Shown here one piece after another: positions 19,109 to 53,866 of a stretch of DNA of 64,000 nucleotides (positions are counted from its first letter, which is position 1; every line of letters begins with the position of its first letter). Origin of the DNA: Massilibacillus massiliensis (GTDB taxonomy: Bacteria; Bacillota; Negativicutes; FLKF01). Below the pieces are notes generated by a model, which worked only from the letters and a program-made list of their open reading frames with translations, ran no database searches and was not told the DNA's origin. The DNA is taken from the NCBI RefSeq assembly GCF_900086705.1, contig NZ_LT575483.1, forward strand, positions 2,077,894-2,141,893, in the 5' to 3' direction. The position numbers and the translations under genes are program-made.

Positions 19109-19877
19109 AGTGCACTCCTGTTATTTATTTGAACATTATCATTATGTCCGGAGACACTACTTCTTTATACAGAAAATATCTAGGAACGTAATTTTTATAA
19201 TATTTTTATAATTTATACATTGCAAACAAGAATAATACAAAGTAAAAAGCAAAAAAAATTAAAAAATAAAAATATATAATGTATCCTTGTATACCGCAAA
19301 ACAATGCAGTACAAAATTTTGCGAAATAAATTTTAGTGTATGTGTAAATGGTAGGAATTATACTCATTAAAAAGGGTTACTTAACATTATTAACATAATT
19401 CTTGCTGTGTATAATAAAACAATTAGTGAATATTTATACAATAAAAAACGTTTATATTACAGAAAATTAACGATAATAAGCATTATTATGCAACTTTATT
19501 TTAAATATGCATATTGACAGTATAAGGTTTCGTTTTTATAATGAATATACATTACATGCATATAATATTGACAGTGAACAAATGTATATTAGTAATGGAA
19601 AGAGTATAACGATATGCCTTGTAATATCGTCCAGTTCAATCTAATTTCAATAATAAATAATGGCGTTTATTTATTGATTTTATATTAATTTGGTTTATAA
19701 ATTGGCCATGCGACAGTGAAGAGGAGAAAAGTAGCTGGAGCAAGGTTTTTTTATTGAAATAGATTGCATGTAATGAAGACAAAACATAAAAATCATGAGT
19801 ATGTGAGTATTCTTAAATTTAAGAGTGCTTAGATAGATTGATTTTTAAATTTGTGTATCTGATATGGGGGAGAGAAT
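19109..19877. other. long AT-rich intergenic region before the glutamate synthase operon
   Basis: This 769-base stretch has no credible gene: short frames lack ribosome sites. It contains the promoter at 19514, and a near-duplicate of its upstream part (TGCATAT...ATTGACAGT) about 50 bases later at 19557-19576, pointing to tandem promoters or a duplicated control site. Its length suggests regulation of the nitrogen-assimilation operon. Confidence 0.5.
19514..19542 (+). promoter_or_regulatory. consensus promoter upstream of the glutamate synthase operon
   Basis: TTGACA, a 17-base spacer and TATAAT: a perfect sigma-A promoter. It would leave a leader of about 330 bases before the first gene. 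Confidence 0.65.
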
Positions 19878-20984
19878 ATGTGTAGGATTGGATCAATAAA
19901 GAGTAAAGTACCGGTTCATCCATCAAAAGCTTTGCATTTGATGTTGCCGCAGCAAGAAGGCCATGATAACTCTGGTTTTGCTATGGTTATGCAGGATTTG
20001 TATGGAGTTTTCACTGAGTATAAAGATAAACCATTATTATCTTTGGCATGTACACAACGCGGCGCCCAGCTGGTAGAAGATTATATGGACAGTCATAACT
20101 TTGTTCAACTGGCAGAATGGATTCCAAAGCCCAATAAACAACCGGGGTTAGATATAAAAGCGATGCCTTACTATATTTTCCGTAACTATGATTATCCAGA
20201 ACAATATCATGATAAATCTCAAGCAGAGCGTGAAGAACTTATGCTGGATACGCGGCTCGCGCTTCGCAGTATATTAGAGGAAGAGGCAGAAGGGTATGTA
20301 TATTCTTTCTGGCCAGATGTTTTGACCTTAAAAGAAATTGGTGATCCACGGGATATTGCCACTTATTTTAGATTATGGGATGACAGTGGAATGTTGATGG
20401 CCAAAAGTATCATCACGCAATGTCGTCAAAATACAAACTATGATATTGTACGTTACGCCGCACATCCGTTTTTTATTCAAGGCTATACATTATGTGCGAA
20501 TGGTGAAAATACATTCTATACAAAGAATATGGAATATCAGAAATCTTTGCATCGTGGGTATATTGGTTTTGAGTCGGATTCACAGAATTTCATTTATACA
20601 TTGCATTATGTACTTCGCCAATTAAAATGGCCGATTCAATATTATAAGCATGTGATTACGCCACTGACATTTGCTGAAGCTGAGGAGCGGCAGGATAAGA
20701 AAGTACTGAGTGTCATTCGACAATCTTTAGGTCATTTAGAAATCAACGGGCCGAATACAATCATTGCATTATTGCCGAGTGGTGATATGATGACCTGCTG
20801 TGATTCGAAGAAACTTCGTCCGGTTGTTGTTGGCGGAGATGATACAACAATTGCAATTGCATCTGAAGTTTGTGGTTTAAATGCAATTTTACCAAATCGT
20901 GATATGGCAAAAGACATTTATCCAAATGAACGTGAGGTCGTTTTGATTAATAATGAATTGGAGGTGCAAAGATGGAAGCAGTAA
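19878..20984 (+). CDS. Glutamate synthase glutaminase (class II amidotransferase) subunit
   Basis: This 368-residue protein is the N-terminal-nucleophile amidotransferase part of glutamate synthase, which frees ammonia from glutamine. MCRIG places the catalytic cysteine at residue 2 after Met removal, and QQEGHDNSGFAMVMQD matches the class II fold. Further conserved parts are the RYAAHPFFIQGYTLCANGENTF stretch, with the HNGE-like region. In canonical GltB this domain is fused to the synthase domain; here it is separate, as in GlxB-type and archaeal-type enzymes. It overlaps the next gene by 13 bases. Confidence 0.85.
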   Translation: MCRIGSIKSKVPVHPSKALHLMLPQQEGHDNSGFAMVMQDLYGVFTEYKDKPLLSLACTQRGAQLVEDYMDSHNFVQLAEWIPKPNKQPGLDIKAMPYYIFRNYDYPEQYHDKSQAEREELMLDTRLALRSILEEEAEGYVYSFWPDVLTLKEIGDPRDIATYFRLWDDSGMLMAKSIITQCRQNTNYDIVRYAAHPFFIQGYTLCANGENTFYTKNMEYQKSLHRGYIGFESDSQNFIYTLHYVLRQLKWPIQYYKHVITPLTFAEAEERQDKKVLSVIRQSLGHLEINGPNTIIALLPSGDMMTCCDSKKLRPVVVGGDDTTIAIASEVCGLNAILPNRDMAKDIYPNEREVVLINNELEVQRWKQ

Positions 20985-22603
20985 GAACGCAGGATGTTGG
21001 TGTAAATGACTTGAAATGGAAAATAGAATATTACGCCGAGCGCTGCACGATGTGCGGGAGTTGTATTGCAGCTTGTACGAAGAATGCAATTGAAGCTTGT
21101 ATGGCACGACGTTCTATTACTGTTTCTACTGCACATCAGCCAGAACCTTTGAAAGAGCATAAAGCGGTCCCTGTGATACGTCAAGTGGCGAGTATAGATA
21201 GTGCCTGTATTGGCTGTGGGATGTGTGAAAAGGTTTGTCCTAATCGGGCAATAAAACCGGTTCGCAATCCTGATAATCGTGTAAATTTGCTGGCACGCGA
21301 TCATGGGCCGATAAAACGCGGCGGACGTACGAACTTAAATGCACAACGTACGCTAGACCATATTATTGTTGGAAGAATATCGCAAATGACAGATCCAGCG
21401 CTTGATTCGGAACGTCATACTTTTGATATCCGGGCTCCATTCGGAAGAGTACTATTGCCTGGTGAATTGCCATTGGTATCAGAAAATGGTGAATTAAGAT
21501 TAACTGAAAAAACACCACCTGTGAATTGGATATATCCGTTGATTTTTAGTGATATGTCTATAGGGGCTTTATCAACAAGAGCATGGGAAGCGGTTTCTTT
21601 AGCGACAGCCTATCTGAATGAAAAACATCATTTGCCGATTCGTATGAGTTCCGGTGAAGGTGGGATGCCGGTAAAATTACTGGAATCAGAAAAATTAAAA
21701 TATATGATTTTGCAAATTGCTTCGGGACATTTCGGCTGGAATCGCATTATCAAGGCTATGCCAAGAATGAAAGTAGATCCGGCTGGTATTTTAATTAAAA
21801 TCGGGCAAGGGGCAAAACCTGGTGACGGCGGACTTTTACCAGCGGCAAAAGTTGCGGAACATGTGCAGGCAATTCGCGGTGTCCCAAAAGCGACTTTAAG
21901 CTCACCGCCGAATCATCAAGGTTTATATTCTATTGAGGAATCCGTACAAAAAATGCATTTATCTTTAAATGCCGCATTTGGTTTTAGAGTTCCTGTAGCG
22001 ATTAAATGCGCGGCCTCGGCCACTTCGGTATCCGTATATAATAATTTGCTTCGTGATCCATATAAAATTTGCGGCGGATTCTTTATTGATGGTATTCAAG
22101 GTGGAACTGGTGCTGCGAATGAAGTTTCTTTGGATCATACAGGACATCCGGTCGTATCTAAATTACGTGAATGTTATTTAGCAGCTGTAAAGCAAGGTTT
22201 GCAAGGTCAGATTCCACTTTGGGCGGGCGGCGGTATTGGCTTAACTGGAAATGCAGCAGCGGATGCATTTAAAATGATTTGTTTAGGAGCAAATGGTGTT
22301 TTTGTAGGAAAAATTTTAATACAATTACTTGGCTGTGTTGGGAATGAGAATGGGCGTTGTAATGCTTGTTCTACAGGAAAATGTCCAACGGGGATTTGCA
22401 CGCAGGATCCTCGTTTAGTAAAGCGGTTGGATATTGATAGAGGTGCGCAAAATATTGTTGACTATGTATTGGCATTAGATAATGAAATGCGAAAATTGAT
22501 GGCACCAATTGGAAATAGTTCGCTTCCGGTAGGACGTTCTGATGCTCTAGTGACGACAGATAAGGCAATTGCCGATAAACTTGGAATACAATATGTATGT
22601 TAG
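20972..22603 (+). CDS. Glutamate synthase FMN/synthase subunit with two 4Fe-4S motifs
   Basis: The 543-residue catalytic subunit reduces 2-oxoglutarate plus ammonia to glutamate. An N-terminal ferredoxin-like module (about 20-90) has CTMCGSCIAACTKNAI and CIGCGMCEKVCPNRAI. The FMN-binding TIM barrel follows (about 140-510), with MSSGEGGMPVKL, KIGQGAKPGDGG, PPNHQGLYSIEE and DGIQGGTGAA, all glutamate synthase signatures. CNACSTGKCPTGICTQDP near the C-terminus supplies further cluster cysteines. This is the archaeal-type synthase core with its own ferredoxin domain, fed by the subunits encoded on either side. Confidence 0.92.
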   Translation: MEAVRTQDVGVNDLKWKIEYYAERCTMCGSCIAACTKNAIEACMARRSITVSTAHQPEPLKEHKAVPVIRQVASIDSACIGCGMCEKVCPNRAIKPVRNPDNRVNLLARDHGPIKRGGRTNLNAQRTLDHIIVGRISQMTDPALDSERHTFDIRAPFGRVLLPGELPLVSENGELRLTEKTPPVNWIYPLIFSDMSIGALSTRAWEAVSLATAYLNEKHHLPIRMSSGEGGMPVKLLESEKLKYMILQIASGHFGWNRIIKAMPRMKVDPAGILIKIGQGAKPGDGGLLPAAKVAEHVQAIRGVPKATLSSPPNHQGLYSIEESVQKMHLSLNAAFGFRVPVAIKCAASATSVSVYNNLLRDPYKICGGFFIDGIQGGTGAANEVSLDHTGHPVVSKLRECYLAAVKQGLQGQIPLWAGGGIGLTGNAAADAFKMICLGANGVFVGKILIQLLGCVGNENGRCNACSTGKCPTGICTQDPRLVKRLDIDRGAQNIVDYVLALDNEMRKLMAPIGNSSLPVGRSDALVTTDKAIADKLGIQYVC

Positions 22604-22615
22604 GAGGGAAGCTGT

Positions 22616-24946
22616 GTGTTTAAGATTAATACATTAGAAGGACATAATCGAATGTCAACGCAAGATCTGCTTATGACGATTAGTGAAGCGTTGGCCAATG
22701 GGGAAACAGAGTTTGATATCATGGCTTCTGGACAACATGATATTGGTGGACCATTATGGCACCCAGAAGGAAAAAAATTAACCTTCCGTGTAACTAATGC
22801 TGGACAGCGCGTTGGTTCTATGTGTCTTGAAAATACAGAAATTATTGTTGATGGGTCAGCCTCTGCTGATGTGGGATGGCTGAATGCCGGTGGTAAAATT
22901 GTTGTAAAGGGAGATGCCGGCGATACAGCAGGGCATTGTGCCGCAGCCGGGAAAATTTACATTGGCGGCCGTGCGGGAACGCGTTCAGGCTCATTAATGA
23001 AACATGATCCGCTGTATGATGCGCCTGAAATGTGGATTCTAAAAAATGTCGGCAGTTTCTCCTTTGAATTTATGGGTGGCGGTAAGGCTGTGGTTTGTGG
23101 ATATGACAGTGAGGCGTTTGAATCGGTATTGGGAGACCGGGCTTGTGTAGGAATGGTAGGCGGTGTGCTTTATTTTCGAGGCAAAGCAGCAGGATTTTCT
23201 ACAACGGAGCTTAAAATCACTGCGCTTGAAGCGGAAGATATTGCTTATTTAGCGGGAAATATGGACGATTTTTTGCAGTCAATTGATAAACCGGAACTTT
23301 ATGATGCGCTTACAAATTGGAGTGATTGGCATAAATTAAGACCGCTTACGTTTGAAGAACGGGTGCCAAATGCTGCAAGTAATATAAAAGATTTTCGTAC
23401 GAAAGAATGGATCGAGGGCGGCATTTTCAGTGATGTTTGTATGGATGATTTTGTGGTAAACAGCACGGTTATGACTGGACTTTATCGTCAGCGTGTCCCA
23501 GCTTGGGAAAATGCAAAATATGCAGCGCCTTGTGAATTTAATTGTCCCGCATCTATTCCGACACAAAGGCGGTACAATTTATTGCGTGAAGGAAAATTTA
23601 AAGAAGCGTATGAGCTAGTCCTTGACTATACACCGTTTCCGGGCTCAGTGTGCGGCAGTGTTTGTCCAAATCTTTGTATGGAAGATTGTACGCGCGGAAC
23701 AATTGATGAATCTGCGCAGATCGGAAAGTTAGGACTTTATTCTGTTGATACGACAGTGGAAATGCCGAGTTTTAAAACAGGTAAGAAAGTCGCTGTGCTT
23801 GGCGGGGGCGTCGCAGGACTTAACGCAGCGTGGCAGTTGGCAAGAAGGGGTCATGATGTAACGGTTTATGAAGAAGATGCAAAAATGGGTGGAAAGTTGG
23901 AGCAAGTAATTCCTCGTTCTCGTCTGCCACAAGAAATTTTGCAGAAAGAATTAAAGCGCATAGAGGATATCGGCGTTCAGTTTATCAATAACTATAAAGT
24001 TACTGCAGAGAAATTTGTGCAGATAAAGGCTTCTTATGATGCGGTGATTGTAGCTACCGGCGGTCATAATCCAACTGTATTTCCATGGCCGGGAAAAGAA
24101 AAAATTGTAAAGGGCTTGCATTTTTTAAAGGCGATCAACAAAGGGCAAAATCCTAAAGTCGGCAAACATGTTATTGTAATTGGCTGTGGTAATTCAGGGA
24201 TGGATGCAGCATTGGGAGCGTATCAAATGGGTGCTGAAACAGTAACTTGTATTGATGTACAAAAACCTGCTGCTTTTGCTAAAGAGATTGCACATGTGAA
24301 AGCGTTAGGCGGAAAATTAGTTTGGCCTGTTATGACGAAAGAAGTAACTGACGACGGGCTTATCACCAGCGACGGGCAGCTTATCCCTGGAGATATGGTA
24401 ATTATTACAGTTGGTGAAACACCCGAACTCGAGTATTTACCGGAGGGTATAGAAAAATTTCGTGCATGGCTGGTGGCGAAAGCGGATAAAAGCATCATGC
24501 AGGGGGTGTTTGCAGCAGGTGATGTAATAAAACCAGGGCGTCTTGTTGATGCAATTGGTGCCGGAACGAAGGCTGCCCATGCAGTGGATTTGTATGTGCG
24601 TAATCTGCCGTATGAATCGATGGCTGAGAAAACAATGATTCCGTCAAAGCAAATAAGTAAAGCTTATTTTTCGAAATGCCATAGTTGTGATCTGCCAGCG
24701 GCAAATAAGGATCATAATCGCTGTATTAGCTGCGGTACATGTCGTGATTGTCAAATGTGCCTAAAATCCTGCCCGGAGAAGGCAATTACAAGAGTTTATT
24801 CAGAAGAGGGTACATTTGAATATGAATCTAATAGTGAGAAATGTATCGGTTGTGGTATCTGTGCAGGTGTTTGTCCATGTGGAATATGGACGATGAGCGC
24901 GAATTCGGAGAAAATCAATATGTATAGAACGTACAATAAAAATTAA
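22616..24946 (+). CDS. GXGXG-GltD-ferredoxin fusion subunit of glutamate synthase
   Basis: A 776-residue fusion. Residues about 40-210 are the GXGXG beta-helix normally found at the C-terminus of GltB (VDGSASADVGWLNAGGKIV). Residues about 300-690 form a GltD-like NAD(P)H oxidoreductase: an N-terminal Fe-S region with CEFNCPASIPTQRR and VCGSVCPNLCMEDCTRG, an FAD Rossmann motif VAVLGGGVAGLNAAW near 391 and an NAD(P) motif VIVIGCGNSGMDAA near 518. The C-terminus adds a ferredoxin domain from about residue 702 (CISCGTCRDCQMCLKSCPEKA, CIGCGICAGVCPCG). It uses a GTG start behind AGGAGGG. The three genes together make one glutamate synthase with an unusual division of domains. Confidence 0.9.
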   Translation: MFKINTLEGHNRMSTQDLLMTISEALANGETEFDIMASGQHDIGGPLWHPEGKKLTFRVTNAGQRVGSMCLENTEIIVDGSASADVGWLNAGGKIVVKGDAGDTAGHCAAAGKIYIGGRAGTRSGSLMKHDPLYDAPEMWILKNVGSFSFEFMGGGKAVVCGYDSEAFESVLGDRACVGMVGGVLYFRGKAAGFSTTELKITALEAEDIAYLAGNMDDFLQSIDKPELYDALTNWSDWHKLRPLTFEERVPNAASNIKDFRTKEWIEGGIFSDVCMDDFVVNSTVMTGLYRQRVPAWENAKYAAPCEFNCPASIPTQRRYNLLREGKFKEAYELVLDYTPFPGSVCGSVCPNLCMEDCTRGTIDESAQIGKLGLYSVDTTVEMPSFKTGKKVAVLGGGVAGLNAAWQLARRGHDVTVYEEDAKMGGKLEQVIPRSRLPQEILQKELKRIEDIGVQFINNYKVTAEKFVQIKASYDAVIVATGGHNPTVFPWPGKEKIVKGLHFLKAINKGQNPKVGKHVIVIGCGNSGMDAALGAYQMGAETVTCIDVQKPAAFAKEIAHVKALGGKLVWPVMTKEVTDDGLITSDGQLIPGDMVIITVGETPELEYLPEGIEKFRAWLVAKADKSIMQGVFAAGDVIKPGRLVDAIGAGTKAAHAVDLYVRNLPYESMAEKTMIPSKQISKAYFSKCHSCDLPAANKDHNRCISCGTCRDCQMCLKSCPEKAITRVYSEEGTFEYESNSEKCIGCGICAGVCPCGIWTMSANSEKINMYRTYNKN

Positions 24947-26780: not shown

Positions 26781-27950
26781 ATGATTTTTAAAAAAGGAAA
26801 ACAGATGGTATGCGCAGTAGCTGCAATGAGTTTTTTTGCACTTACAGCTGCGGGGTGTGGGGATGCAAATTCTGATACAATTAAAATCGGTGCTAATTTG
26901 GAAATGACAGGAACAAATGCTACATTTGGACAATCGGCAACAAATGGTGCGAAGCTTGCAATCAAAGAAGTGAATGAAAAAGGCGGTGTACTTGGTAAAA
27001 AAATCAGTTTGGTGGTAGCAGATAACAAATCCGAAGCTGCTGAAGCTGCAAATGCAATGCAGAAGTTAATTTCACAGGATAAAGTTGTCGGCGTTATTGC
27101 GCCAATCGCTTCTTCCAGTGTGATTGCAGGAGCACAGGTAAATACAGATGGCAAAGTTCTAGCGATTAGTCCAACCGCATCTAATCCAAAAGTGACGGTG
27201 GATCCCGATACAGGCAAAACGCGTGATTTTCTGTTTAGAGCAGCATTTATTGATCCATTTCAAGGCTCTGTAATGGCAAATTTTGCTGCAAAATCTTTGC
27301 AAGGAAAAACGGCAGCCTTATATATTGATAATTCCAGCGATTATGCGAAAGGTTTAGGGCAGTTTTTTAAGGAAACATTCATAAAGAATGGCGGAACAAT
27401 TGTAGCCGAAGAAGCGTATTTGGCGAAGGATACCGATTTTAAATCAACGTTAACAAAAATTAAAGCTACAAATCCTGACATTGTATTTGTACCTGGGTAT
27501 TATCAAGAAGTTGGGATGATTATCAAACAAGGACGTGAAATGGGTATTCAAGCTGCTATCTTAGGCGGTGACGGCTGGGATAGTGCGAAACTTCCTGAAA
27601 TTGCTGGTGCAGAAGCGCTGAACAACACGTTCTTTGCGAATCATTATTCTCCTGATGATGATAGTCCAGCGATCAAAACTTTTGTAGAGGCATATCAAGC
27701 AGAATATAAACAAACACCGGATGCGTTTGCCGCACTTGCTTATGATGCGACAATGATGATCATTGAAGCAATAAAGCGTGCAGGTAGTGAGGATACGGTG
27801 AAGATTAAGGATGAGCTAGCTAAGACGAAAGATTTTGCAGCTGTTTCGGGCGTTATTACGTTAAATGAAACGCATGATGCGATTAAGAGTGCAGTTGTAA
27901 TTGAAATGAAAAATGGGCAGAAGACTTTTAGGGAAAAAATAAATCCATAA
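26781..27950 (+). CDS. livK: Branched-chain amino-acid ABC transporter binding lipoprotein (copy 2)
   Basis: A 389-residue paralogue of the preceding gene with its own lipobox (LTAAGCGD). It shares the frame IKIGANLEMTG, FRAAFIDPFQGSVMANFAAK and ADNKSEAAEAANA. Differences cluster in the ligand-pocket half, for example LGGDGWDSAKLPEIAG against LGTDGWDDAKLTEIAG, which may mean different amino-acid preference. It has its own promoter and terminator. Recent tandem duplication followed by divergence is the likely history. Confidence 0.92.
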   Translation: MIFKKGKQMVCAVAAMSFFALTAAGCGDANSDTIKIGANLEMTGTNATFGQSATNGAKLAIKEVNEKGGVLGKKISLVVADNKSEAAEAANAMQKLISQDKVVGVIAPIASSSVIAGAQVNTDGKVLAISPTASNPKVTVDPDTGKTRDFLFRAAFIDPFQGSVMANFAAKSLQGKTAALYIDNSSDYAKGLGQFFKETFIKNGGTIVAEEAYLAKDTDFKSTLTKIKATNPDIVFVPGYYQEVGMIIKQGREMGIQAAILGGDGWDSAKLPEIAGAEALNNTFFANHYSPDDDSPAIKTFVEAYQAEYKQTPDAFAALAYDATMMIIEAIKRAGSEDTVKIKDELAKTKDFAAVSGVITLNETHDAIKSAVVIEMKNGQKTFREKINP

Positions 27951-27962
27951 ACGATATACGAG

Positions 27963-28014
27963 CACACTATAGTTGTACTGATAATATAGTATAGATCTAT
28001 AGTGTGTTTTTTTA
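27963..28014 (+). terminator. terminator after second livK
   Basis: CACACTATAG and CTATAGTGTG arms followed by a run of seven T. Confidence 0.88.
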
Positions 28015-28114: not shown

Positions 28115-28143
28115 TTGACAGTGTATACTTGTAACATTATAAT
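28115..28143 (+). promoter_or_regulatory. promoter of the livHMGF operon
   Basis: TTGACA, 17-base spacer, TATAAT: a perfect promoter. The predicted transcript begins near 28150 and has about 230 bases of leader. Confidence 0.75.
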
Positions 28144-28149
28144 AAGGAT

Positions 28150-28285
28150 AGTAACAAATTTAATCGTGAACGTTTAAACTGTCAGTATGAGAATGGTTTT
28201 GCTCAAGGGTGAGTTTATCTACTAGGGTGGCGAATGCAGAGGTGAAAAAGACCTTTAGCCAATAGTGTGGCTAGGGGTCTTTTCT
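28150..28285 (+). promoter_or_regulatory. unidentified attenuator leader of livHMGF
   Basis: A terminator hairpin (AAGACCTTTAGCC, 28248-28260, with GGCTAGGGGTCTT, 28269-28281, then TT) is placed before livH. AGAGGT at 28238-28243 can instead pair with ACCTTT at 28251-28256, destroying the terminator, so two exclusive folds exist. A short frame from ATG 28187 reads MRMVLLKGEFIY and ends just before the switch. It includes Val-Leu-Leu and Ile codons but lacks a clear ribosome site. AGGGTGG at 28224-28230 recalls a T-box but the rest does not fit. Type of regulation unknown. Confidence 0.5.
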
Positions 28286-28378
28286 TGATTTTTGACAAGC
28301 GTCTGTGCCAAAGCACGGAAATCTCAGTTTAAGGGTTCCTCGTCAAATGTCGGTTATTATATGAATGGAGGAGACAAT

Positions 28379-29266
28379 ATGGAATTTATGGAACAGTTCG
28401 TTCAACAGTTAATTAACGGTGTTTCTTTAGGCAGTATTTATGCCTTGATTGCACTCGGTTATACCATGGTTTATGGCATTATCAAATTAATTAACTTTGC
28501 TCATGGCGACATTTATATGATCGGCGCGTATGCTGGATTTTTTGCAACAGCGACTCTTGGCTTATCATTTGTACCAGCACTTATTGTATCTATGATAGTT
28601 TCAGGTTTATTGGGAATGCTGATAGAGCGAATGGCGTATCGTCCGCTTCGGCATGCACCAAAAATTGCAGTTTTAATCACGGCAATCGGTATTTCACTCT
28701 TATTGGAGTATGGCGGAATGCTGGTTTTTACACCACAACCTAGAACTTTCCCGAATGTGTTTGAAGCTACAACGTATCATATCGGTCCGTTTGTAGTGAA
28801 TAGTCAACAGATTCTTATTTTAGCTGTTTCAGTATTGTTGATGGTAATTTTAACGTATGTAGTTCAAAAGACGATTATTGGCAAAGCAATGCGCGCTGTT
28901 TCTTTTGATACAGAAGCAGCACAGTTAATGGGGATTGATGTAAACCGTATTATTTCTGCTACGTTTGGAATTGGTTCTGCACTTGCAGCCGCTGCGGGGG
29001 TACTTGTTGGTGTCTATTACAATTCAATTGATCCATTAATGGGGATTATGCCAGGTTTAAAAGCCTTTGTTGCGGCTGTACTGGGCGGTATCGGAATCAT
29101 CCCAGGCGCAATGGCTGGTGGCGTTATTCTCGGGGTCATAGAGGCATTGGTGAGCGGGTTCATCTCTTCTACATTTCGTGATGCGGCGGCGTTTGCTATT
29201 TTAATCATTATTCTTTTATTTAAACCATCGGGTTTATTCGGCAAGAATACGCGTGAGAAGGTGTAG
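28379..29266 (+). CDS. livH: Branched-chain amino-acid ABC transporter permease LivH
   Basis: Integral membrane permease, 295 residues, about eight hydrophobic segments. QLINGVSLGSIYALIALGYTMVYG and the INFAHGDIYMIGAY block are LivH signatures. GGIGIIPGAMAGGVILG is the coupling-helix region that contacts the ATPase. I choose ATG 28379 behind GGAGGAG over an in-frame TTG at 28292. It is first in a tight livH-livM-livG-livF operon with overlapping or near-overlapping ends. Confidence 0.95.
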   Translation: MEFMEQFVQQLINGVSLGSIYALIALGYTMVYGIIKLINFAHGDIYMIGAYAGFFATATLGLSFVPALIVSMIVSGLLGMLIERMAYRPLRHAPKIAVLITAIGISLLLEYGGMLVFTPQPRTFPNVFEATTYHIGPFVVNSQQILILAVSVLLMVILTYVVQKTIIGKAMRAVSFDTEAAQLMGIDVNRIISATFGIGSALAAAAGVLVGVYYNSIDPLMGIMPGLKAFVAAVLGGIGIIPGAMAGGVILGVIEALVSGFISSTFRDAAAFAILIIILLFKPSGLFGKNTREKV

Positions 29267-29275
29267 GTGATAGAA

Positions 29276-30220
29276 ATGAGAGCAGTAACAAAAAAAGATA
29301 TAAAAATACTGGGTGCCTGTGTTGTTGTTTATGCAATTATTGAGGCGCTTTTACAAATGAATATGATTGGTTCTTTTTGGGAGTTAAACTTAATATTAAT
29401 TGCAATTAATATTATCATGGCAGCCAGCCTGAATTTAATCAATGGATATACAGGGCAATTTTCGCTTGGTCATGCAGGTTTTATGGCGGTTGGCGCATAT
29501 ATGAGTGCAATCATTACAGTCAAGTTCCAGCTACCGTTTATCTTGGCAATTATCGTTGGCGCAGCAGGGGCCGGTTTACTTGGTTTTCTCATTGGTTTGC
29601 CGACTTTGCGGTTAAGTGGAGATTACTTGGCAATTGCAACACTTGGGCTTGGAGAAATTATTCGTATTACGATTTTGAATATTCCTTATGTTGGTGGTGC
29701 TTCCGGATTCATGGGAATCCCACGGTACACAAATTTTGCTTGGGCGTTCTTTGTTTGTCTGTTTACATTGTTTTTTATTAAAAACTTGGTCAATTCCTCG
29801 CATGGGCGTGCCTGTATTTCGATTCGAGAAAATGAAATTGCAGCGGAGGCAATGGGAATTGATACGACGAAATATAAAGTGATTGCATTTACGATCGGGG
29901 CAGCATTTGCAGGTGTCGCAGGTGCTTTATTTGCGCATTACTTTTATATTGCCCATCCGGCATCGTTTACGTTTATGATGTCCTTTAATTATTTAACTAT
30001 GGTTGTTATGGGAGGACTGGGATCTATTACGGGATCCGTAGCCGGAGCCGTTATCTTGACGTTTGTTTCCGCGGCATTGGCAAGCTGGCCGGAATGGCGC
30101 ATGATTATTTACTCCATCGTATTGATTTTATTGATGTTGTATCGCCCACAAGGGTTATTTGGAAATGTGGAATTAACAAGTCTCAGCGTTTTTAAACGCT
30201 TCAAGGGAGGTAGCAAGTAA
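29276..30220 (+). CDS. livM: Branched-chain amino-acid ABC transporter permease LivM
   Basis: Second permease, about 314 residues. NLINGYTGQFSLGHAGFMAVGAYM is the LivM signature and GGLGSITGSVAGAVIL the ATPase-contact loop. I choose ATG 29276, six bases after AGGTG; a GTG directly after the livH stop at 29267 is also in frame. Its stop overlaps the livG ATG by one base. Confidence 0.94.
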   Translation: MRAVTKKDIKILGACVVVYAIIEALLQMNMIGSFWELNLILIAINIIMAASLNLINGYTGQFSLGHAGFMAVGAYMSAIITVKFQLPFILAIIVGAAGAGLLGFLIGLPTLRLSGDYLAIATLGLGEIIRITILNIPYVGGASGFMGIPRYTNFAWAFFVCLFTLFFIKNLVNSSHGRACISIRENEIAAEAMGIDTTKYKVIAFTIGAAFAGVAGALFAHYFYIAHPASFTFMMSFNYLTMVVMGGLGSITGSVAGAVILTFVSAALASWPEWRMIIYSIVLILLMLYRPQGLFGNVELTSLSVFKRFKGGSK

Positions 30221-30987
30221 TGAATTTACTTAAAGCCGAAAAAGTTTCAAAGGTATTTGGCGGGTTAAAAGCAGTTTCCAATTTCGAAATGCATATTGAG
30301 CAAGGCGAACTTATTGGTTTGATTGGCCCAAATGGTGCAGGAAAGACGACAGCATTCAACCTGTTGACTGGGGTTTATCAACCTACGACTGGTGTAATTG
30401 AATTTGCCGGTAAGAGCGTAGTAGGTCTTAAACCTTTCCAAATTACACAAGGCGGTATAGCGCGCACATTTCAAAATATTCGCTTGTTCTCTGAACTTAG
30501 TGTGCTGGACAATGTAAAGATAGCGTATCATTCGCATGTAAAATACAGCTTACTAGAATCTGTTTTTCGTGTTGGGCGATATTTCAAAGAAGAAGAAGAA
30601 ATTGAACAAAAGGCAATTGAGTTTTTAGAAATATTTAAATTGGGACATAAAAAAGATGAAATTGCAAAGAATCTACCATATGGTGAACAACGTCGTTTGG
30701 AGATTGCCCGAGCATTAGCTGCAAAACCCAAGTTATTGTTGTTAGATGAACCAGCGGCAGGGATGAATCCGCAAGAAACCCAAGACTTGATGGAAATGAT
30801 CAGTTGGATACGTAAAGAGTTTGGTTTGACAATTCTTTTAATCGAACATGATATGAGCTTGGTAATGGGGATCTGTGAGCGTATTTATGTATTAGAATAC
30901 GGTAGTATTATTGCGCATGGTACTCCAAATGAGATTAAAAATAATCCGCAGGTTATAAAAGCTTATCTTGGGGAAGAGGTGGAATAA
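30220..30987 (+). CDS. livG: Branched-chain amino-acid ABC transporter ATPase LivG
   Basis: A 255-residue ATP-binding subunit. Walker A is GPNGAGKTT (near 37-45), the signature is LPYGEQRRLEIARALA and Walker B is LLLLDEPAAGMNP. The long insert between Walker A and the signature, with GIARTFQNIRLF, is the LivG type. It overlaps livM and livF by one base each (TAATG), as expected of a coupled heterodimer pair. Confidence 0.95.
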   Translation: MNLLKAEKVSKVFGGLKAVSNFEMHIEQGELIGLIGPNGAGKTTAFNLLTGVYQPTTGVIEFAGKSVVGLKPFQITQGGIARTFQNIRLFSELSVLDNVKIAYHSHVKYSLLESVFRVGRYFKEEEEIEQKAIEFLEIFKLGHKKDEIAKNLPYGEQRRLEIARALAAKPKLLLLDEPAAGMNPQETQDLMEMISWIRKEFGLTILLIEHDMSLVMGICERIYVLEYGSIIAHGTPNEIKNNPQVIKAYLGEEVE

Positions 30988-31691
30988 TGCTTCATATTGA
31001 AAATATAAACGTATACTATGGCGCAATTCATGCAATTAAAGATATTAGTATCAATGTAACAGAAGGTCAAATTGTAACGTTAATTGGAGCGAATGGTGCT
31101 GGTAAAAGTACAACATTGCGTACGATTTCTGGACTGCTTAAACCCAAAACAGGAAAAATTGATTTTGAAGGTAAAAATATAGCGGGATTGGCGGCACAAG
31201 AAATTGTAAAACGAGGGATTTCACAGGTACCAGAGGGTCGTCGTGTATTTGCGAATATGACGGTATTAGAAAATCTTGAACTTGGAGCTTATATCAGAAA
31301 AGATAAAGACGGCATTCAGAAAGATATGGATGCTGTATTTGACCGGTTTCCTCGTTTACTTGAGCGTAAATTACAATTGGCAGGTACGCTTAGTGGTGGT
31401 GAGCAGCAAATGCTTGCTATGGGACGTGCGCTGATGAGTCGTCCACGATTATTATTGCTAGATGAACCCTCCATGGGATTGGCACCATTACTTGTGAAGG
31501 AAATTTTTTCGATTGTACAGGAGATCAATAGAACCGGCACAACGGTTTTATTAGTGGAACAAAATGCGAATATGGCCTTATCAATTGCCCATCAGGCCTA
31601 TGTGCTTGAGACCGGAAGAATTACATTGTCCGGTGATGCAAAAAAACTGGCGGCGAGTGAGGAAGTGCGCAAAGCTTATTTGGGCGGCTGA
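30987..31691 (+). CDS. livF: Branched-chain amino-acid ABC transporter ATPase LivF
   Basis: The second ATPase, 234 residues. Walker A is GANGAGKST, the signature is LSGGEQQMLAMGRAL and Walker B is LLLLDEPSMGLAP. VPEGRRVFANMTVLENLELGAY is the LivF-typical stretch. No strong terminator follows, so transcription may run on into the CBS-ACT gene 75 bases later. Confidence 0.95.
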   Translation: MLHIENINVYYGAIHAIKDISINVTEGQIVTLIGANGAGKSTTLRTISGLLKPKTGKIDFEGKNIAGLAAQEIVKRGISQVPEGRRVFANMTVLENLELGAYIRKDKDGIQKDMDAVFDRFPRLLERKLQLAGTLSGGEQQMLAMGRALMSRPRLLLLDEPSMGLAPLLVKEIFSIVQEINRTGTTVLLVEQNANMALSIAHQAYVLETGRITLSGDAKKLAASEEVRKAYLGG

Positions 31692-31766: not shown

Positions 31767-32417
31767 GTGTTCGTGGCGAATAGAATGACAAAAAATCCAA
31801 TTGTAGTTGCCCCAAATGATAAGGTCGACGAAGCGGCTGATATTATGAAAAAACATGGGTTTCGTCGGTTACCTGTTGTTGAAGAAGGTCAGGTCGTTGG
31901 TTTTTTTAGTGACCGAGATTTGATGAAAGCTGCACCTTCACCTGCGACGACTTTATCAAAATATGAAGTAAACTCCTTATTGGCAAAAATGACAGTAAAA
32001 GAAATTATGACAAAAAAAGTGATTACAATTCATGCTGATGCAACGATTGAAGAAGCTGCCCTCATTATGTATCACCAAAAAATTGGCGGTATGCCAGTAA
32101 TTAGCAGTACCAATACACTTGTAGGAATTATTACGGAAACAGATATCTTTAAGGCTTTTGTTGATATTATGGTTCTTACTGAGCCATCCACGCGTATTAC
32201 GATCAGCGGAGAAGATACAATTGGTGTTATTCATGGTGTAACTCGTATCTTTGCTGAGATGGGAATTAATATCATCAGTTTAGTGAGTGCGAAAAAGGCA
32301 AATGAAGCTGGCAAGTACGATTTGATCGTGCGTGCGCCGATTGACGATGTAGATGTATTAAAACAAAAGTTAGCGGAAAATGGATATCAAGTAACGAGTA
32401 TCATAAAGATCGGATAA
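31767..32417 (+). CDS. CBS-pair plus ACT domain protein (AcuB-like)
   Basis: A 216-residue cytoplasmic sensor with two CBS motifs (about 1-60 and 75-135) that form one nucleotide-binding Bateman module, and a C-terminal ACT domain (about 140-216) typical of amino-acid sensing. MTKNPIVVAPND and IMTKKVITIHADATIEEAA mark the CBS starts. The layout resembles AcuB. The start is GTG with GAGGAG upstream. Standing after livHMGF, it could link energy or amino-acid status to transport, but this is inference from position only. Confidence 0.8.
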   Translation: MFVANRMTKNPIVVAPNDKVDEAADIMKKHGFRRLPVVEEGQVVGFFSDRDLMKAAPSPATTLSKYEVNSLLAKMTVKEIMTKKVITIHADATIEEAALIMYHQKIGGMPVISSTNTLVGIITETDIFKAFVDIMVLTEPSTRITISGEDTIGVIHGVTRIFAEMGINIISLVSAKKANEAGKYDLIVRAPIDDVDVLKQKLAENGYQVTSIIKIG

Positions 32418-35616: not shown

Positions 35617-35639
35617 AGCCCCATAAAACAAAATATTTG

Positions 35640-35737
35640 CGATACAGAACTGGCGGATCAAGTGGTTTACCACGAGGGACTGTATTGTATAAAAGTCGAC
35701 CGCCTGGGCATTGGTTTTCTATGCTCAGGCGGTTTTT
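35640..35737 (+). ncRNA. ZTP riboswitch (pfl motif) with terminator
   Basis: The aptamer shows ACTGGCGGAT (35650-35659), GTGGTTTACCACGAGGGAC (35662-35680) and the invariant CCGCCTGGGCA (35700-35710). ATACAG/CTGTAT pairs close the first domain. The CCGCCTGGGCA strand can also pair with TGCTCAGGCGG (35722-35732), giving a terminator followed by five T. ZTP or ZMP, the signal of 10-formyltetrahydrofolate shortage, should prevent termination. Upstream of pflB this is the location from which the motif was named. Confidence 0.9.
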
Positions 35738-35976: not shown

Positions 35977-38202
35977 ATGAATGTTTGGCAAGGTTTTAAC
36001 AAAGGAAAATGGCAAGAGCATATAGATGTGAGAGATTTTATACAGGTGAACTATAAACCGTATGAAGGTGAAGATACTTTTTTAGCGGCTGCAACGGATA
36101 AGACTAAAAGGGTTTGGGATAGATGTAAAAAACTATTGGAAGAAGAAAATAAAAAGGGTGTATTGGATGTTGATACAGAAATTGTTTCAACGATTACATC
36201 TCATAAAGCTGGTTATATTGATCAGGAAAATGAAGTTATTTTTGGTCTGCAAACAGATGCGCCATTAAAACGTGGTGTTATTGTCAATGGTGGTGTCCGT
36301 ATGGCTGAGCAGGCTTGTGAGGAATATGGATATAAATTAAATCCAGCGATTAAGGATGTCTACACAGATCTAGTGACTACACATAATAGTGCGGTATTTA
36401 GCGTCTATACACCGGAAATGCGCAAAGCGCGTAAGTTGGGGATTATTACAGGGCTGCCTGATGCTTATGGTCGGGGGCGTATCATTGGCGATTATCGTCG
36501 AATTGCTCTTTACGGGGTGAAGCATTTAATTACGGAAAAAGAAAAAGATTTGAATGAAATGTTTAGTAATGTAATGACAGAAGAAGTCCTGCAGCATCGT
36601 GATGAAATTGCAAAACAGATTGCAGCTTTGAAAAGCATGATTGCTATGGCTGAGGAATATGGTTTTGATATTCGTGTTCCGGCTAAAGATGCAAAAGAAG
36701 CCGTACAATGGGTGTATTTTGGGTATTTAGCAGCGATTAAAGATCAAAACGGTGCAGCAATGTCAATCGGGCGTGTTTCGACTTTCTTGGATATTTACAT
36801 TTCCCGTGATCTTGAAAATGGAATACTTACGGAAAGCGGAGCACAGGAATTGATGGATCAATTTGTAATTAAGCTTCGCCTTGCACGTATGCTGAGAACA
36901 CCGGAATATAATGAATTGTTTGCTGGAGATCCGCTTTGGGTGACGGAAGCAATTGGCGGAATTGGTGAGGATGGACGTTCGTTGGTGACGAAAAATTCTT
37001 ATCGGATTTTACATTCTTTATATAATTTAGGACCTGCACCAGAACCAAATTTAACGGTGCTTTGGTCAGATAAATTACCGCATACATTTAAAAATTTCTG
37101 TGCGCAGGTATCGATTGCTACAAGCGCAATCCAATATGAAAATGATGAAGTAATGCGCCCGGTATATGGTGATGATTATGGAATTGCCTGCTGTGTATCG
37201 GCAATGCAGTTGGGGAAACAAATGCAGTTCTTTGGGGCACGTGCAAACCTTGCAAAATCTTTATTGCTTTCGATTAATGGTGGATTGGATGAAAATACGG
37301 CGCAGCAATTGGCACCTGCAATGCCGATTGTCGATGGTGAATATTTAGAGTATGAAGTTGTACGTAAAAATTATTCTAAAGTTTTGGCTTGGTTAGCTGG
37401 TCTTTATGTCAATACGATGAATCTTATCCATTTTATGCATGATAAGCATGCATATGAAGCCGGACAAATGGCATTGCATGATAGTGAAGTAAAGCGTTTG
37501 ATGGCGTTTGGGGTTGCCGGTCTCTCTGTGGCAGTGGATTCATTGAGTGCGATCCGTTATGCGAAGGTAAAGGCAATTCGTGATGAAAATGGTATTGCAA
37601 AAGATTTCGAAATTACGGGTGAATTCCCTATGTATGGAAACAATGATCCACGGGTAGATTGCCTGGTAGAAGAAATTACGCATGAATTTATCAGTGAGCT
37701 TAGAAAGCATCCAACGTATCGTGAGGCAGAACACACTTTGTCAGTGCTTACGATTACTTCTAATGTAATGTATGGCAAGAAAACGGGTGCGACACCGGAT
37801 GGGCGTAAAGCTGGTGAAGCTTTTGCACCTGGTGCAAATCCAATGCATGGGCGTGATAAACAAGGCGCATTGGCTGCGATGAAGTCTGTAACAAATATCT
37901 CGTATGAGGATTGTCGCGATGGAATTTCGTATACATTTTCCATTGTGCCGGCAGCTCTTGGCAAAACGTCTGAGGATCGAAGCCGCAATTTGGTCGCATT
38001 ATTAGATGGATATTCTGCTTGCAAAGGGCACCATATTAATATTAATGTGTTTGACCGTGCGCTATTAGAAACTGCAATGAAGGAACCGGAAAACTATCCG
38101 CAGCTTACAATTCGTGTATCCGGCTATGCCGTCAACTTTGTAAAACTTAGTAAGGCCCATCAATTAGAAGTGATTCGTCGTACATTTTATGAAGCAGTCT
38201 GA
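35977..38202 (+). CDS. pflB: Formate C-acetyltransferase (pyruvate formate-lyase)
   Basis: A glycyl-radical enzyme that cleaves pyruvate with CoA to acetyl-CoA and formate. The 741-residue chain has the catalytic pair Cys405-Cys406 in [14 protein letters not shown] and the glycyl radical at about Gly716 in [27 protein letters not shown] and [16 protein letters not shown] are typical of true PFL rather than glycerol- or choline-type relatives. GCGAGG precedes the ATG. Its stop overlaps the activase start by 14 bases. Confidence 0.96.
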
Positions 38203-52853: not shown

Positions 52854-52861
52854 AATATAAA

Positions 52862-52990
52862 CTCCTAAAGGGGAGTAGCTCATAGAACAGAGTCAACATA
52901 CTGGCAGCGTAGCTGTCTGGCTCTGTTGTTGGCTTAGCCAATAGCGAGACCTTTAGTATGACGTAAATCGTCGTACTAAAGGTCTCGCTT
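52862..52990 (+). ncRNA. yybP-ykoY manganese riboswitch with terminator
   Basis: The diagnostic AAAGGGGAGTAGC (52867-52879) opens the aptamer, and AGCGAGACCTTTAG closes it, pairing CTAAAGG with CCTTTAG. Three internal stems (AACAGAG/CTCTGTT and others) make the three-way junction. The closing strand GCGAGACCTTTAGTATGACG (52944-52963) can also pair with 52969-52988 to form a terminator followed by seven T. Mn2+ binding should release transcription of the exporter downstream. Confidence 0.93.
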
Positions 52991-53191: not shown

Positions 53192-53866
53192 ATGATAGCT
53201 TTTTTAACTTCTTTAGTTTTCGTTGTATTGGCGGAGATGGGAGATAAGACACAACTTTTAGCAATGGCATTTGCAACACGCTATTGTTGGAAAACTGTAA
53301 TGTGGGGTGTTTTTGCTGCAACGGTTTTAAATCATTTGCTGGCTGTAGTTGTTGGTAATTATTTGACCAACTTTATTCCAATGCAGCATATTCAGATCAT
53401 TGCTGCATTGTCGTTTATCGTATTTGGGCTTTGGACAATTCGCGGTGATGAACTTGATGGTGAAGATAAAGCTAGGAAGTATAGTCCGTTTTGGACTGTG
53501 GCAATTGCTTTTTTTATTGCCGAAATGGGTGATAAAACGCAGTTTGCAACGGTTGCTTTAGCAGCGCAGTTTCATGCGGTCTTGCCTGTTTGGCTTGGTA
53601 CGACAATCGGAATGATGATTGCTGATGGAATTGGGATCATTATTGGGATTGTTTTGGGTAAAAAAATACCAGAACGTGTGGTTAAATGGGTAGCAGCGAT
53701 TGTTTTTATTCTTTTTGGTTTATTTGGTTTGTATGGAGCTGTGCCAAAAGAATTTTTAACGATGCCAGTAATTGTAGGTTGTTTAATTGTCGTGATTGTT
53801 TCTATCTATTTAACGAGTCGTTTGGGGCAGAGTAAAGAAGTGGAACCATCAATGGAAAAACATTAA
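53192..53866 (+). CDS. GDT1/UPF0016-family manganese exporter
   Basis: A 224-residue membrane protein with two repeated halves, each with the family motif E-M-G-D-K-T (residues about 15-20, LAEMGDKTQLLAM, and about 108-113, IAEMGDKTQFATV). These acidic motifs bind the transported cation. Homologues (MneA, MntX-like) expel Mn2+, and the upstream Mn riboswitch supports this. GGAGG lies at fair spacing before the ATG. Confidence 0.93.
   Translation: MIAFLTSLVFVVLAEMGDKTQLLAMAFATRYCWKTVMWGVFAATVLNHLLAVVVGNYLTNFIPMQHIQIIAALSFIVFGLWTIRGDELDGEDKARKYSPFWTVAIAFFIAEMGDKTQFATVALAAQFHAVLPVWLGTTIGMMIADGIGIIIGIVLGKKIPERVVKWVAAIVFILFGLFGLYGAVPKEFLTMPVIVGCLIVVIVSIYLTSRLGQSKEVEPSMEKH

Follow-up and report, generated by a model that had tools for sequence, protein, structure and literature searches.

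We report that the livHMGF operon of Massilibacillus massiliensis, for the uptake of branched-chain amino acids (BCAA), is preceded by a leader with its own promoter, an intrinsic terminator and, between the two, a small hexaloop hairpin (P1) which recurs before livH in several families of the Negativicutes, and that ANTAR genes are present in the genomes concerned. The combination of a premature stop signal with an ANTAR-like half-site hairpin suggests that the leader is probably an unlisted switch of amino-acid uptake, and not one run by a short peptide. Specifically, RNA polymerase would start behind the promoter and, unless helped, stop at the terminator, while an RNA-binding protein, most likely an ANTAR-domain response regulator, would read the C-G-closed hexaloop by the A at loop position 1 (A1) and the G at position 4 (G4). 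Once bound to P1 it would allow transcription to continue into livHMGF, perhaps because a short hairpin formed with the terminator's 5' arm would then be preferred. We put this protein-dependent antitermination forward tentatively; the binding of a protein to P1, the identity of that protein and the signal to which it responds (the state of nitrogen or of amino acids) are what we infer. It is also possible, if somewhat doubtful, that several Negativicutes families share a leader class where a lone ANTAR-type hexaloop hairpin, with no partner, governs antitermination of BCAA uptake, by a one-hairpin mode of ANTAR action or through another protein that reads the same loop.

Organization of the livHMGF leader

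The window, i.e. the whole stretch of 64,000 nucleotides that was analysed, comes from a genome of 4.0 Mb, and the LivH encoded there shares 93% identity with its counterpart in a Massilibacillus MAG (locus L011); the features of the livHMGF region are given in Table 1. The hairpin and T run behind the livK-type gene should end livK transcription, and lie outside the terminator scan because the loop is too long. The promoter was absent from the preliminary description of this DNA, and several relatives also have a 12/12 sigma-70 promoter in front of their livH leaders. The terminator, which had been placed at 28248-28283, was recovered by the scan with slightly different ends and is predicted to halt transcription in the cell. 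Between 27900 and 28500 there are 2 terminator-like sites compared to 0.1 in shuffles, both of them representing this stem, one per strand. The earlier view of an attenuator-like leader outside the known classes agrees with our data: the leader scores below the gathering cut-off of every Rfam family, the loci of 13 relatives likewise have no family at threshold, and the pairing is kept in relatives (see below). We consider it likely that the leader acts as an attenuator. Directly 3' of livF (31767-32417) there is a gene for a CBS-pair and ACT-like protein (domains named by eye), a possible amino-acid sensor.

Table 1. Features of the livHMGF region, in window coordinates
Feature	Position	Strand	Basis or remark
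Second livK-type binding-protein gene, 5' neighbour	26781..27950	+	ORF list; name from sequence and context
Probable livK terminator, CACACTATAG ... CTATAGTGTG followed by T run	27963..28013	+	by eye
Sigma-70 promoter TTGACA-17-TATAAT, 12/12	28115..28143	+	promoter scan
Leader RNA, about 135 nt	28150..28285	+	start predicted some 7 nt downstream of the -10 box
Frame MRMVLLKGEFIY of the preliminary description; probably no working leader peptide	28187..28225 (stop 28223-28225)	+	sequence letters, energies, shuffles
P1 hexaloop hairpin GCUC-AAGGGU-GAGU	28201..28214	+	A1 = 28205, G4 = 28208, closing pair C28204-G28211
Weak possible antiterminator hairpin	28238..28256 (AGAGGT 28238-28243, ACCTTT 28251-28256)	+	folding energies, shuffles
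Intrinsic terminator, 16 pairs	28246..28283	+	terminator scan
livH (permease)	28379..29266	+	ribosome site GGAGGAG 28367-28373
livM, livG, livF	29267..31691 (ORFs 29267-30220, 30220-30987, 30987-31691)	+	names from sequence and context

The P1 hexaloop hairpin

P1, which the preliminary description did not name, is the best conserved feature of the leader. Among 12 aligned rows loop position 1 is A in 12/12 and position 4 is G in 11/12, positions 2, 3, 5 and 6 are variable and the closing pair is C-G in 12/12; these columns were counted by position, since MAFFT misaligned two hairpins with GAAC stems, and their placement is an assumption. A fifth stem pair is kept in only 6/12 rows, and the loop is therefore a hexaloop.

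Within the set of 12 leaders used for our tests, 10 have an A1/G4 hexaloop on four pairs, where 0.016 is expected per leader. This set left out L010 (a near copy of L009), L203 and L204. A uniform scan of 137 livH upstream regions yielded 22 distinct leaders with a promoter of at least 11/12, and 10 of these 22 have a C-G-closed A1/G4 hexaloop (0.35 expected); L076, without a 10/12 promoter, and L126, with none by eye, belong to the 12 and stand outside the 22. The fitting leaders use four P1 stems (GCUC/GAGC, GAAC/GUUC, GGAC/GUCC and GUCC/GGAC) and span six families (f1, f2, f11, f18, f24 and f26; L011 was counted as G001 for its family label because the leaders are identical). Three leaders examined after the rule was set, L204, L198 and L253, fit it on new stems, while L010, whose stem has just 3 pairs (by eye), L203, L252, L255 and L261, likewise examined later, do not. 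The 12/22 leaders without P1 by the rule are seven of Pelosinus type (five from Pelosinus and two from the same family), L086, L130, L164, L203 and L206. Four further leaders with promoters of 11 or 12 stand outside the 22, namely L253, L252 (where the sole P1-type hairpin lies at +139), L255 (an A1/G4 loop on a G-C top pair) and L261 (no A1/G4 hexaloop with a C-G top pair); with them 11/26 fit.

For comparison, an A1/G4 hexaloop hairpin lies at most 60 nt upstream of 5/54 terminator-like sites in the window, this leader included. The sequence GCTCAANGGYGAGY has matches in 8/10 searched genomes at 9 places, of which 7 are liv leaders and the other 2 fall within a beta-galactosidase-type gene; it has no match in G001 and G016 despite their leaders, and in G307 only in the beta-galactosidase copy. 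P1 was also considered as a DNA operator, which we rejected as there was no sign of its use at several promoters.

Distribution and conservation of the leader

In the search for LivH in GTDB genomes the best 80 of 353 loci were kept, and a close LivH is present in 268/380 genomes of the class. A covariance model (R1) built from eight leaders gave matches above 50 bits in 9/380 class genomes, each directly before livH, with no further match above 40 bits among the 380; G016 has a match of 36.2 bits, also before livH. Among the 30 R1 loci given, L118-L126 match strongly, L130 is located in front of livH, and the other 19 are, on a quick look, seemingly ordinary terminators. One locus, L127 (1501-1589, minus strand, before a TerC-like gene), matched R1 mainly by its terminator, and the letters of its leader, AAAGGGGAGUAG, probably represent a Mn riboswitch (by eye). 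In a phylum sample of 398 genomes R1 was found in 3, two of them already known, and the third (L239) was rejected as a terminator behind a stop codon. Homologous leaders are present before livH in part of the class, and they are lineage-limited.

A covariance search with livH leaders of relatives had been proposed as a check, and the pairing turned out to be kept: in an alignment of 10 rows, which was fitted to the R1 model, 96.1% of the cells pair, and shifting the partners by one to three columns lowers this to 31.2-58.9%. Both partners have changed in five pairs, of which one belongs to P1, and of the five alignment measures one, further pair types, was not beyond shuffles (69/500).

Two other groups of livH leaders were seen. 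Those of Pelosinus type (L023, L036, L040, L041, L056 and L168-L171) combine a 12/12 promoter with a long 5' region that is conserved, lacks P1 and is perhaps a repeat element. L167, L180 and L181, from one family, share a conserved GC-rich stretch before livH, GGGGCGCCGC.GAAGGGCCAGTA.AGACTTCGG, and no Rfam match at threshold was obtained for L167 and L180.

These data also bear on whether P1, the linker and the terminator arm might together form a riboswitch for a small metabolite such as a BCAA, a keto acid, ppGpp or glutamine. The leader has what such an element would have, i.e. its own promoter, a compact conserved sequence and a terminator, and it falls in no Rfam class; moreover, the 5' arm of P1 can also pair with the linker in Pectinatus leaders (shuffles as good: L058 2/300, L076 0/300, L050 10/300 and L126 21/300). 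However, there was no sign of this pairing in the window, L011, L130 and L009, and in L046 it is weak; the 14 nt and the closing pair that alone are kept between families leave little for a binding pocket, and the strong R1 matches, in 9/380 class genomes, lie before livH only. A riboswitch is quite unlikely in our judgement, and we prefer a protein that would read the P1 loop.

A candidate antiterminator hairpin

According to the preliminary description the terminator competes with an AGAGGT/ACCTTT pairing. This pairing exists and excludes the terminator because ACCTTT belongs to the 5' arm of the latter, but it is weak (-4.6 kcal/mol, where the terminator has -22.5 kcal/mol). Shuffling of the window leader gave an equally long local stem in 76/1000 cases, and as much pairing of the terminator arm with upstream sequence in 45/200; the window hairpin, taken alone, is therefore within chance. 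Over the 12 related leaders the mean local stem on the terminator arm is 4.08 compared to 1.04 in shuffles, a value that 0/1000 shuffles reach, with the rows being related to one another. Such local stems have at least 3 pairs in 10/12 leaders and at least 4 pairs in 9/12, no local hairpin on the arm was found in L165 and L179, and in a wider arm-pairing test over the 12 leaders 7/200 shuffles were as good. An antiterminator hairpin in the leader is plausible, not proven. The leader of L198 (G041) has a 7-pair hairpin directly on its terminator arm, AGTCTCC(AGAATCTGC)GGAGACT (by eye), which is a stronger candidate than that of the window.

The weakness of the window hairpin suits another scheme without a dedicated factor, in which premature termination would be either constitutive or growth-dependent (or the site would mark a small RNA's end) and P1 would be a pause or stability hairpin. 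Local hairpins of at least 4 pairs also occur at 11/38 ordinary terminator-like sites of the window (under a slightly different rule), and the terminator arm is not special because GACCTTTAG recurs in another window terminator (52944-52988). What such a scheme leaves aside is that the P1 loop rule is kept while the stem is replaced, as in the 10 leaders seen against 0.35 expected, and we consider a factor-free terminator unlikely.

The short frame and the leader-peptide reading

Leader-peptide attenuators are known from amino-acid operons of the ilv, leu and his type, and ribosome-mediated attenuation had been suggested here as well: stalling on a Val/Leu/Ile-rich peptide would choose between antiterminator and terminator. 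The livH leader resembles these attenuators in having a terminator with an exclusive, weaker hairpin, and the frame with Val, Leu, Leu and Ile codons is present and ends just upstream. It is unlike them in that the frame has no ribosome site (Shine-Dalgarno pairing +0.7 kcal/mol, compared to a strong -9.8 kcal/mol for livH) and in that its BCAA codons are neither conserved nor beyond shuffles. In L011, the nearest relative, the equally long frame gives MRMFVAQGGAYC, where one of the four BCAA codons' kind remains. The Leu/Ile/Val richness of the window frame is reached in 203/500 shuffles with ATG starts and in 400/500 with ATG, GTG and TTG starts.

The ATG frames of the 12 leaders, when pooled, are richer in Leu, Ile and Val than shuffles (5/500), which speaks for a peptide. 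This signal comes mainly from L011 (MVLVVDV) and L179, whose closest relatives, the window and L165, lack the ATG of the frame at the corresponding position (by eye); it is gone once GTG and TTG starts are allowed (178/500 shuffles). Moreover, the reading frame through the hairpin differs between species (by eye). Taken together, our results argue against a leader peptide for livHMGF: a peptide mechanism is unlikely, and ribosome stalling as the switch between the two folds very much so.

Comparison with known RNA classes and ANTAR targets

The preliminary description saw the letters AGGGTGG (28224-28230) as a reminder of the T-box core without the other T-box nucleotides, and held that ykkC-type sequences do not fit. 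The leader shares AGGGTGG and a terminator with the T-box riboswitch (RF00230), but a covariance match is absent: of the 19 T-box hits in the genome, 16 of which exceed the cut-off, none is at the livH leader. Nor was there a ykkC match at gathering scores or with E up to 5. Elsewhere in the window we found a ZMP/ZTP riboswitch at 35636-35716 (RF01750, 61.7 bits) followed by a large ORF of pyruvate-formate-lyase-type look (35977-38202, by eye), and at 52858-52988 a probable Mn2+ riboswitch with a terminator (RF00080, 37.7 bits vs the gathering score of 45), behind which the ORF 53192-53866 has the look of an UPF0016/Gdt1-type exporter (by eye).

Searches of the open-licence literature showed nothing published about liv leaders of Negativicutes. 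The ilvD, gltD and ldh2 leader motifs of this class, in the passages of PMC8632094 consulted, concern other genes; the first is placed before ilvD (in Veillonella only) and the second before gltD, neither of them before livH. Like the livH leader, the ilvD and gltD motifs are putative cis-regulatory leaders in the same class with related metabolism, and some ilvD motifs carry a terminator; what sets them apart is the genes before which they are described. Likewise, a term search of the available text of PMC2965389, a survey of premature terminators, gave no hit for branched-chain, livK, livJ, Veillonella, Selenomonas or ANTAR. In the window, a 12/12 promoter and a long leader (19514-19877) precede a three-ORF glutamate-synthase-type operon (19878-24946), and this leader might hold a gltD motif; considered as a second ANTAR-type target it was rejected, no terminator being found.

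ANTAR targets, as described in the passages of Ramesh et al. (2012, PMC3369931) on which we draw, consist of two small hairpins whose hexaloops carry A1 and G4, and published recognition requires both. According to the same passages the stems matter by structure and the closing pairs by sequence, the second hairpin overlaps the terminator, the linkers are 5-12 nt, and function is impaired by loss of either hairpin or by a 14-nt linker; in the eutP target the top pair is C28-G35 and the next pair A-U.

Unlike these targets, the livH leaders were not found to have a second A1/G4 hexaloop hairpin at the terminator. A strict scan gave it in 1/12 leaders and a relaxed scan in 1/13, with 2.73 expected by chance, and tandem A1/G4 hairpins at a terminator were found neither in the window nor in L148 or L149, the two loci with histidine kinase-ANTAR regulator pairs of this genome. 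For this reason we have not filed the livH leader as an ANTAR target. In a single and poor control from the same genome, the eat leader beside one ANTAR system, there was likewise no clean pair, just one A1/G4 hairpin at the terminator, so that the scan for the second hairpin may be too strict. P1 and the short arm hairpin lie about 16-24 nt apart (by eye), compared to 5-12 nt for the published linkers. The second pair from the top is U-A in the window P1 and A-U in eutP; of the four stems, GAAC and GGAC alone have the eutP pair.

The genome has 2 ANTAR genes, neither of them in the window. Of its two kinase-ANTAR pairs, one lies before groES/groEL and the other before the gene of a permease that resembles ethanolamine permeases; the leader of this gene contains two terminator-like stems as well as an A1/G4 hairpin. 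ANTAR genes are present in 16/16 genomes checked whose leaders or P1 were used (G000, G001, G012, G016, G017, G031, G038, G041, G078, G086, G187, G229, G269, G275, G307 and G308) and in 272/380 genomes of the class, which fits the proposed mechanism but does not decide it.

With the targets of EutV (eut), NasR (nasF) and AmiR (amiE), P1 shares a small hexaloop hairpin with A1, G4 and a C-G top pair on a stem that is free to change while its structure is kept, and the livH leader shares with these systems an intrinsic terminator downstream and ANTAR proteins in the genome. Judged by its letters, the leader looks like it contains a recurrent ANTAR-like half-site, and by analogy it might work like an ANTAR target rather than be one. 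If so, the ANTAR regulons could be extended to amino-acid uptake, and a recurrent one-hairpin leader, in a class where 272/380 genomes have ANTAR genes, offers a direct test of the two-hairpin rule.
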